Below, piece after piece: positions 44,321 through 46,275 of a stretch of DNA of 64,000 bases. The first letter of the stretch is position 1. Each line of letters starts with the position of its first letter. A program made the translations under genes and the position numbers. The notes beneath the pieces were generated by a model, which did no database searches, was not told where the DNA came from, and worked only from the letters and a program-made list of their open reading frames with translations. Source of the DNA: Anaerolineaceae bacterium (GTDB lineage: Bacteria > Chloroflexota > Anaerolineae > Anaerolineales > Anaerolineaceae); assembly GCA_016841525.1 (NCBI GenBank), contig JAENYZ010000003.1, forward strand, positions 248,001 through 312,000, in the 5' to 3' direction.

Positions 44321-44349
44321 ACCGACCAGTCTGCGGAAACCTGGTCGGT
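44321..44349. terminator. Terminator between the unknown gene and the cold-shock gene
   Basis: ACCGACCAG (44321-44329), 11-base loop, CTGGTCGGT (44341-44349). Read on the minus strand it ends the cold-shock gene with a T run; on the plus strand the T run is poorer. It resembles the leader hairpin at 44661. Confidence 0.85.
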
Positions 44350-44379: not shown

Positions 44380-44589
44380 CTACAGGGGTTGAACGTCCTT
44401 CGCTTGCAGGCCCTTTGGACCTTGTTCCACGGAGAATTCTACTTGCTGTTCTTCTCGCAGTGATTTGAAGCCTGAGCCCATAATGGCGGTGTGATGAACG
44501 AATACGTCGTCACCAGCTTCTCGTGCGATAAAACCATAACCTTTTGCATCATTGAACCATTTGACGGTTCCAATTTCTTTTTCTGACAT
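44380..44589 (-). CDS. Cold-shock protein
   Basis: 69 residues, one OB-fold cold-shock domain: [15 protein letters not shown] contains RNP1 (KGYGFI), DVFVHH is RNP2. Such proteins bind single-stranded RNA or DNA and melt RNA hairpins; several are transcription antiterminators. It is transcribed alone from the promoter at 44726-44753 with a leader of about 128 bases that contains a terminator-like hairpin. GGAAG stands 9 bases before the ATG. Confidence 0.97.
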
Positions 44590-44660
44590 TCTAAATACTT
44601 CCTTTGTTTGTTACTAAATTGTTAATTTTGGGCGTTAGTTTTTACTGGTAACGATAAAAA

Positions 44661-44689
44661 ACCATCCAGTCTCCGCAAGTCTGGACGGT
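44661..44689 (-). terminator. Terminator-like hairpin inside the cold-shock leader
   Basis: On the minus strand ACCGTCCAG, 11-base loop, CTGGATGGT, then TTTTT. It begins about 30 bases after the expected transcription start and ends about 70 bases before the start codon, so it would act as an attenuator. It matches the gene's own downstream terminator in 22 of 29 positions. Confidence 0.75.
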
Positions 44690-44725
44690 CGATACCTTAC
44701 CAAAACTAACTCCACTTCATAGATA

Positions 44726-44753
44726 ATAATACCATCTAAAATAAATATGTCAA
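44726..44753 (-). promoter_or_regulatory. Strong promoter of the cold-shock gene
   Basis: On the minus strand TTGACA (44753-44748), 16 bases, TATTAT (44731-44726). The -35 box is perfect consensus. Confidence 0.75.
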
Positions 44754-44853: not shown

Positions 44854-46275
44854 ATGGCAATATTAATTAAGAACGGCACCCTGATTACTGCCAGCGAAAC
44901 ATTCAAAGCAGACATACTGATTGAAGGTGAGAAAATCAGCATGATTGGGCATGACCTGACCCACCTTAATGCTGAAATCATAGATGCGGACGGCAAATAT
45001 ATCCTGCCCGGCGGCGTCGATCCCCATGTTCACCTCGATCTTCCAATGTTTGACACCGTTTCCTCAGATGACCATTACACTGGAGGCAAAGCAGCAGCCT
45101 TTGGCGGCACGACGACCGTTATCGATTTTGTGCCCCAGGATGAGAGAAGTCTTGAAGAAAACATTCAGCGGTGGCACGCAAAAGCTGATCCTAAAGCTTC
45201 AGTTGACTTCAGCTTTCATATGAACATCACCCGATTCAACCGGGATGTGGCAAAAGAGATTTTCACTTTACCAGACCTGGGTATTACCAGCTTGAAAGTG
45301 TTTACAGCTTATAATAATCGTTTGCGTCTTTCAGACGGAGAAATTTTCAGAGTAATGCGCCTGGCAAAGACATCTGGCATGCTAACGCTCCTACATGCTG
45401 AAAACGGTGATGTGATAGACATTCTTATTGAAGAAGCCCTGACTGCCGGTAATACGGACCCGATTTATCATGCAAAGACACGCCCTGCCTGGGGCGCCGT
45501 TGAAGCTGCAATGCGGGCAGCCGCATTATCCGCTCAGGCAGGTGATGCCCCTCTGTACCTTGTGCACATGAATACAGCAGGTGAAGTCGATCAACTCGCA
45601 TACGCACGTGAGCATGGTGTCAGGATGATGGGTGAAACCTGTCCGCAGTACCTGTTCTTCACAGAAGAGGACCTGCTTCGGGAAGATGGCGCAAAGTGGA
45701 TTTGCTCACCGCCAATGCGTAAGGCGGCAGATAATGATCGATTGTGGCAGGGTTTATCTGACGGCACAATCCAGGTTATGTCCACGGATCACTGCCCCTT
45801 CTTTTTTGACGGCACAAAGCCTATTGAGTATGAGGGCGAAAAGGTTACCATCCCAGGGAAGGAATTAGGTGCAAAGGATTTCACTAAAATTCCCAATGGT
45901 CTTCCTGGTCTTGGAGACCGTATGCCGATTATATGGACACAAGGTGTGGTTAATGGCCAGATTACACCCAATCAATTTGTGGCACTGCATGCAACCAATC
46001 CAGCGAAAATTTTTGGCCTTTATCCTCAAAAAGGTACACTGCTGCCCGGGTCTGACGCAGACATTGCCATCTGGGACCCAAATAAAGAACTTCGTTACGG
46101 CGTAAATGTCGCCCAGCATCGCACAGATTACAACCTTTATGAAGGCTGGCATCTCAAGGGCTTCCCGGTTATGGTCTTCTTGCGCGGCCAAATTATTGTT
46201 AATGGCGATGAGTGGCTGGGCAAACCAGGGATGGGTCGCTTCCTGCATCGTCATGAAGGTGAAGTTCTGAGTTGA
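44854..46275 (+). CDS. hydA: Dihydropyrimidinase / hydantoinase
   Basis: 473 residues, full family length. The metal ligands are visible: DPHVHLD (His58, His60), the carboxylated Lys148 in TSLKVFTAY, LLHAEN, LVHMN, and STDHCPF with the catalytic Asp. It opens dihydropyrimidine or hydantoin rings, the second step of reductive pyrimidine breakdown or of hydantoin use. No dihydropyrimidine dehydrogenase or carbamoylase is in the window. GGAGGC lies before the ATG. The following membrane module starts 16 bases after its stop and may be co-transcribed. Confidence 0.93.
   Translation: MAILIKNGTLITASETFKADILIEGEKISMIGHDLTHLNAEIIDADGKYILPGGVDPHVHLDLPMFDTVSSDDHYTGGKAAAFGGTTTVIDFVPQDERSLEENIQRWHAKADPKASVDFSFHMNITRFNRDVAKEIFTLPDLGITSLKVFTAYNNRLRLSDGEIFRVMRLAKTSGMLTLLHAENGDVIDILIEEALTAGNTDPIYHAKTRPAWGAVEAAMRAAALSAQAGDAPLYLVHMNTAGEVDQLAYAREHGVRMMGETCPQYLFFTEEDLLREDGAKWICSPPMRKAADNDRLWQGLSDGTIQVMSTDHCPFFFDGTKPIEYEGEKVTIPGKELGAKDFTKIPNGLPGLGDRMPIIWTQGVVNGQITPNQFVALHATNPAKIFGLYPQKGTLLPGSDADIAIWDPNKELRYGVNVAQHRTDYNLYEGWHLKGFPVMVFLRGQIIVNGDEWLGKPGMGRFLHRHEGEVLS

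Follow-up and report, generated by a model that had tools for sequence, protein, structure and literature searches.

In E. coli, the mRNAs of csp and helicase genes have a 5' element in common, the cold box, and in hok mRNA the 3' end folds back onto the 5' end. To our knowledge, there are few worked examples of a bacterial mRNA whose 5' end pairs with its 3' end, and we know of none that involves two terminator-like hairpins and is kept across families and operon rearrangements, nor do we know of a terminator-like leader hairpin or of end pairing for the E. coli cspA leader. It has been reported for icaR of Staphylococcus aureus that a 3' UTR motif pairs with the Shine-Dalgarno sequence, hinders translation and makes a substrate for RNase III (PMC3868564), an article that also mentions hok. 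The icaR mRNA resembles the csp locus in that the 5' and 3' UTRs of one mRNA would pair, and pairing in cis or in trans is open for icaR as well; the csp case differs in that the partners are two hairpin loops, one of them in the operon terminator, that lie away from the Shine-Dalgarno sequence, and in that the element is found in several families and ahead of several genes. When the csp loci were viewed in the same terms as icaR, complementary segments in the 5' and 3' UTRs were found in 42 of 45, whereas the stronger partner of the 3' motif was not the Shine-Dalgarno sequence but the leader loop, which lies 66-169 nt from the start codon.

Proteins of the CspA family (CspA, CspC and CspE) are antiterminators (PMC4347634), and CspD provides a precedent for Csp-dependent readthrough (PMC9765468). 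Both papers describe Csp acting on intrinsic terminators, which is the likeness to our locus, where a contact between Csp and a terminator would be putative. The E. coli cspA thermosensor (RF01766) is similar in being a structured leader of a cold-shock gene; its model, which spans part of the coding region too, scored 47.4 bits on the window against a gathering score of 78. No Rfam family reached its gathering score in the window, and near csp there were, apart from this cspA match below the threshold, just two weak hits, both to families of unrelated RNAs. The Chlorobi-RRM motif (RF01697), a candidate structured RNA that its name and a table row tie to RRM genes of Chlorobi, comes from a different phylum, and the window fell below its gathering score; a word search of the accessible text of its source found neither 'cold shock' nor 'csp' (PMC2864571). 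Searches of a largely open-access literature for leaders of csp genes, for cold-shock RNA motifs of Chloroflexi and for bacterial mRNAs that kiss or are circular gave, judged by titles and the openings of abstracts, no description of the element.

The csp locus and its leader RNA

The window, that is, the whole stretch of 64,000 nucleotides that was analysed, contains a csp gene on the minus strand (Table 1). A sequence-only reading of this DNA had assigned to this gene a promoter, a leader hairpin, a U run and a terminator, all of which were confirmed by the promoter match (11 of 12 consensus bases) and by the fold scores given in the table. The promoter pattern alone is weak proof, because shuffled sequences yield 2.5 promoter-like sites in the same region; in relatives, a similar promoter was seen by eye at the corresponding place ahead of csp. 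Transcription would start near position 44719, giving a leader of about 130 nt. Since the gene upstream of csp (44854-46275) is on the plus strand and divergent, the leader hairpin is not the terminator of that neighbour. A terminator scan with a loop limit of 8 omits both the leader hairpin and the csp terminator, and a second scan includes both.

Table 1. Features of the csp locus, in the direction of transcription
Feature	Position (strand)	Score or basis
csp promoter: -35 TTGACA (44753-44748), 16 nt, -10 TATTAT (44731-44726)	44726..44753 (-)	
P1 5' strand, contains conserved GAAGUNNGUUUUGG-like element	44693..44714 (-)	RNAfold
P2, terminator-like leader hairpin	44661..44689 (-)	-16.3 kcal/mol, z -2.98
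P2 loop core UGCGGA, complementary to 3' terminator loop	44672..44677 (-)	
U run 3' of P2, six T	44656..44661 (-)	
P1 3' strand	44629..44656 (-)	RNAfold
Shine-Dalgarno-like AAAGGAAG	44598..44605 (-)	from sequence
csp gene, 69-aa cold-shock protein	44380..44589 (-)	Pfam CSD PF00313, E 4.6e-27
csp terminator hairpin	44321..44349 (-)	-15.9 kcal/mol, z -3.96
UCCGCA core of the csp terminator loop, complementary to the P2 loop	44332..44337 (-)	

For a leader stretch of 126 nt, RNAfold gives an extended rod (-35.3 kcal/mol, z -4.0) whose outer stem P1, a feature missed by the sequence-only reading, surrounds P2. Among 45 leaders, the cognate 5' and 3' segments of P1 gave -16.9 compared with an average of -15.0 for swapped segments (0 of 5000 shuffles), with the own partner ranked best in only two leaders; these swaps, like those for loop pairing below, ignore the kinship of the loci. 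P1 also shows matched changes, for example in L145 (GACAAAGUA/UACUUUGUC). The evidence for P2 comes from the 34 of 43 distinct leaders that have the commonest geometry: ten of its 12 pairs are kept in 32-34 of the 34 leaders and two in 24, and several show three or four pair types. In the csp leaders of relatives, whose alignment the sequence-only reading had proposed, the hairpin is thus conserved, and pairs in it have changed on both strands. In 43 of 45 leaders, P2 is followed by at least six T in the best stretch of 8 nt, so that, as a sequence feature, P2 with its U run has the form of an intrinsic terminator between promoter and gene in these leaders and in the window. This conservation, together with the U run, makes it likely that an intrinsic terminator precedes csp.

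Formation of P1 requires RNA that is transcribed after P2, and therefore P1 should not decide termination at P2. An antiterminator formed by the 5' segment and the 5' arm of P2 was unsupported (cognate -12.7, swapped -12.4, p = 0.15); for the 3' arm of P2 the value was p = 0.003, though the segment can include the foot of P2 itself. With no RNA antiterminator found to compete with P2, any switch would probably depend on a factor acting in trans. The earlier proposal that the leader hairpin is an attenuator is thus supported in part, through the likely terminator.

A csp search of genome contigs, from which the best 80 loci were kept, supplied 11 Chloroflexota loci with a GCGGA loop (L004-L013, L034), and these and the window seeded a covariance model of the leader. 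Of 396 genomes in the class, the model matched 33; it also matched 5 of 400 in a draw from the phylum, and 9 of 101 genomes drawn from the own family, eight of these belonging to the own genus. In four other families, the matched genomes were 12 of 13, 7 of 11, 6 of 24 and 4 of 6 (the draws overlap). The csp gene itself was present in 59 of 61 drawn own-family genomes, and therefore the leader is rare in this family outside the own genus. Upstream of csp, L004 and the own-family locus L134 have the same sequence. We regard the csp leader as a candidate cold-shock leader RNA, probably a structured element that cold-shock genes have conserved in this Chloroflexota class.

Leaders departing from the common form were also seen. 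The L007 leader, like that of L138, has an extra small hairpin between P1 and P2, and the L131 and L132 leaders have the loop CUUACGUAG, whose palindromic core UACGUA could pair between two RNA copies. In the more distant csp loci L024, L046 and L014, a terminator-like hairpin with another loop lies between promoter and csp; the gene after csp in L024 and L046 is presumably FKBP-like.

Complementary loops at the two ends of the operon

The loops of P2 (ACUUGCGGAGA) and of the csp terminator (GUUUCCGCAGA) are not alike; they are complementary over UGCGGA/UCCGCA (leader CUUGCGGAGAC, terminator GGUUUCCGCAGA) and, with G-U counted in a 17-nt frame, could form 11 contiguous pairs. It had been claimed that the two hairpins match in 22 of 29 positions and have the same 11-base loop. 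The count is right, a repeat search reporting a 36-nt direct pair at 78%, and both loops are indeed 11 nt long, but the loop sequences differ, and the match is misleading in that they are complementary. When 447 kb of the own genome (20 stretches plus the window, out of 3.2 Mb) were scanned, these two hairpins were the only ones with TGCGGA or TCCGCA loops among 82 terminator-like hairpins, and the csp terminator was the top partner for the leader loop among the 82 (-17.5, next -12.8). The own-genome csp paralogues L002 and L003 have neither the leader element nor a UCCGC hairpin.

For the comparison among relatives, 71 loci were examined, 14 of them chosen among the contig hits and the other 57 making up the series L104-L160. 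Nine in which the finder found no csp (L014, L119, L127, L146, L151, L155, L158, L159 and L160) and eight with identical upstream sequence were set aside, leaving 54 distinct csp loci. Of the nine, L151 does encode a Csp and L014 was first retrieved as a csp match, and no UCCGC hairpin was seen in either; the L127 sequence ends 82 nt past the leader, ahead of any gene. A GCGGA leader hairpin was present in 45 of the 54 loci (the threshold for leader hairpins was lowered from 14 to 10 in the course of the comparison, a change that adds L006 only), and in 42 of the 45 a hairpin with a UCCGC loop lies downstream, 37-472 nt past the csp stop codon and, in csp-RRM operons, beyond the RRM gene. L156 is a true miss, with a GCGGA leader and no UCCGC hairpin within 1255 nt, and none was found in the 277 and 424 nt seen for L012 and L013, respectively. 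In contrast, the UCCGC hairpin was absent from all nine csp loci with another leader loop and from all 26 readable own-family csp loci without the leader, including the two own-genome paralogues (28 control loci, of which two could not be placed); in three of the 26, the leader contains a terminator-like hairpin of a different kind.

L104-L160 gave 112 terminator-like hits, a number that includes some hairpins listed a second time with displaced ends and some duplicate loci. Of these hits, 38 contain UCCGC, and all 38 are in leader-bearing operons (27 matched by script, nine from duplicate locus copies and two from RRM-only operons). The idea that UCCGC loops are a general trait of terminators is rejected by these hits and by the scan of the own genome. 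Likewise, a role of the terminator loop as an anti-Shine-Dalgarno sequence was considered and rejected, the leader loop being a stronger partner than the Shine-Dalgarno region in 42 of 42 loci. Seven of the nine leaders with other loops share at most four contiguous complementary bases with the loops of downstream terminator-like hairpins; a 5-base match was spotted post hoc in L130 (GAGGC) and L150 (CUUGC). L130 and L156, from two genomes of one genus, are both without a UCCGC terminator; L156 retains GCGGA, and L130 has the leader loop GCUGA and its differing match to its own terminator, as if the pair were being lost or were shifting.

The same leader is found ahead of RRM genes (L146, L158, L160) and DEAD-box helicase genes (L155, L119, L159), one RRM and one helicase having been checked with Pfam, so that one element precedes several genes of cold-shock type, namely csp, RRM and DEAD-box genes, as in the leader of a cold-shock regulon. 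The RRM operons L146 and L160 end with a UCCGC hairpin, and the helicase leader L159 has a different loop. However, three genes are preceded by a GCGGA leader but not followed, as far as their sequence extends, by a UCCGC hairpin: the RRM gene of L158, whose operon has an unrelated terminator, and the helicase genes of L155 and L119. These three loci do not fit a strictly cis rule and leave room for pairing in trans.

Changes in step at the loops

The core UGCGGA/UCCGCA is invariant in 42 of 42 loci. Because GCGGA and UCCGC, five of the six core letters, were the search criterion, the core cannot show covariation, and the pairing is supported instead by co-occurrence and by one or two positions next to the core. 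The flanking letters that are free of the criterion, U before GCGGA and A after UCCGC, are present in all 42 loci, and the 17-nt frames contain 7 to 13 contiguous loop pairs, G-U counted. After removal of seven repeats, the 35 distinct cognate pairs had a mean contiguous run of 10.2, compared with 9.7 for shuffled loops (p = 0.0002; for energy, p = 0.003; kinship ignored).

Position +1 is A-U in nine loci, G-C in 21 and G-U in ten, all ten being of the own group, with one A/C and one C/C mismatch. On a csp gene tree (207 columns, 14 open forks), this position changed five times in the leader and five times in the terminator, and the joint state changed six times, compared with an average of 9.3 when independent change was simulated (P = 0.0003). 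The number of A/C mismatched tips on this tree (one, compared with 5.1 expected) was not significant (P = 0.13). Independent contrasts over well-supported branches gave three pairs, with 1.8 changing the same way and 0 the opposite way, in a sign test of low power (p = 0.5). Furthermore, two genomes of one genus, G053 and G126, each have one G-C locus (L125 and L123) and one A-U locus (L153 and L154). Since one of the two cross pairings in these genomes is a tolerable G-U, the case for pairing in cis is moderate. Pairing between the leader and terminator loops is thus likely, though not proven.

Proposed end pairing and alternative explanations

We favour, as rather more probable than its denial, the explanation that the P2 loop pairs with the loop of the terminator at the end of the operon and thereby joins the 5' end of the csp mRNA to its 3' end. 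P1 would enclose the terminator-like P2 near the 5' end, with UGCGGA displayed in the P2 loop, and the hairpin that terminates the same operon would display UCCGCA, so that a loop-loop kiss could bring the mRNA ends together. The two loops presumably lie on one transcript, and pairing would occur mainly inside one mRNA. P1 and the kissing hairpins might shield both ends from decay or tie output to a complete mRNA; cold would strengthen the contacts, and Csp or a helicase could open them. Any transcripts ending at P2 would then be by-products or represent an additional level of control.

These shortened transcripts are central to an alternative that is compatible with end pairing and that we consider a serious possibility, though short of an even chance, namely that the leader is an attenuator controlled by Csp or cold, in which P2 halts most transcripts and Csp or cold permits readthrough, giving feedback on csp. 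In line with it, 43 of 45 leaders have P2 followed by a U run, P2 of the window lies at about +30 relative to the predicted start, and the identical type of leader stands before csp, RRM and DEAD-box genes; reduced termination by Csp proteins has also been reported (PMC9765468; PMC4347634). However, an attenuator leaves unexplained why the loop of the 3' terminator is complementary, pairing of an antiterminator was not found, and L142 and L143, with their poor U runs, nonetheless keep the loop. Pairing in trans would account for the three leaders without a UCCGC hairpin of their own, especially as the csp loci L118 and L157, in the genomes of L158 and L155, do have UCCGC terminators: either the terminator loops of csp transcripts would be bound by an RNA of about 65 nt released at P2, or a fragment from the 3' part of a csp mRNA would bind nascent csp, RRM and helicase leaders and link the regulon. 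In either version, pairing in trans seems unlikely to us, since the co-change tracks the cognate locus and G053 and G126 maintain two differently matched pairs.

It is also conceivable, but quite improbable, that each loop is kept separately as a binding site for a protein (Csp or an RRM protein), with the complementarity as a by-product. The constant cores would be expected of such sites and the gene products are RNA-binding proteins, whereas complementary co-occurrence in 42 of 45 loci, the absence of UCCGC from 9 of 9 loci without GCGGA and the joint stepwise change at position +1 would not be expected. Least credible of all is a duplicated terminator, which would make the two hairpins copies, as the sequence-only reading had it in deriving both from one ancestor. 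The identity in the window is high, as noted above, and averages 20.2 of 29 in ten own-group loci, but it drops to 13.3 of 29 in the remaining 32 loci, less than for leaders and terminators paired at random (14.6), and the loops are complementary rather than alike; the likeness is therefore confined to the own group, and common descent of the hairpins was not borne out.

Returning to end pairing in cis, the terminator loop is kept despite its varied distance from csp and, outside the own group, despite a stem unlike that of the leader. If true, end pairing would be an RNA-only means of making the fate of an mRNA depend on its completion, in genes whose products melt RNA, and, with the exact partner bases known, it is directly open to compensatory mutants. 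A more speculative extension, which we put forward tentatively and think somewhat unlikely as a whole, is that cold-shock mRNAs are sealed end to end by the kiss in a manner dependent on temperature or Csp level, with the short P2 RNA competing, as a device of several families.

Another hairpin of the csp 3' UTR was seen by eye in L009-L011 and L110-L112. It is of the CUGCxUC...GAAGCAG type, lies at the start of the RRM gene in L112, looks like an intergenic control element that survives loss of the RRM gene, and could pair with the 3' strand of P1.
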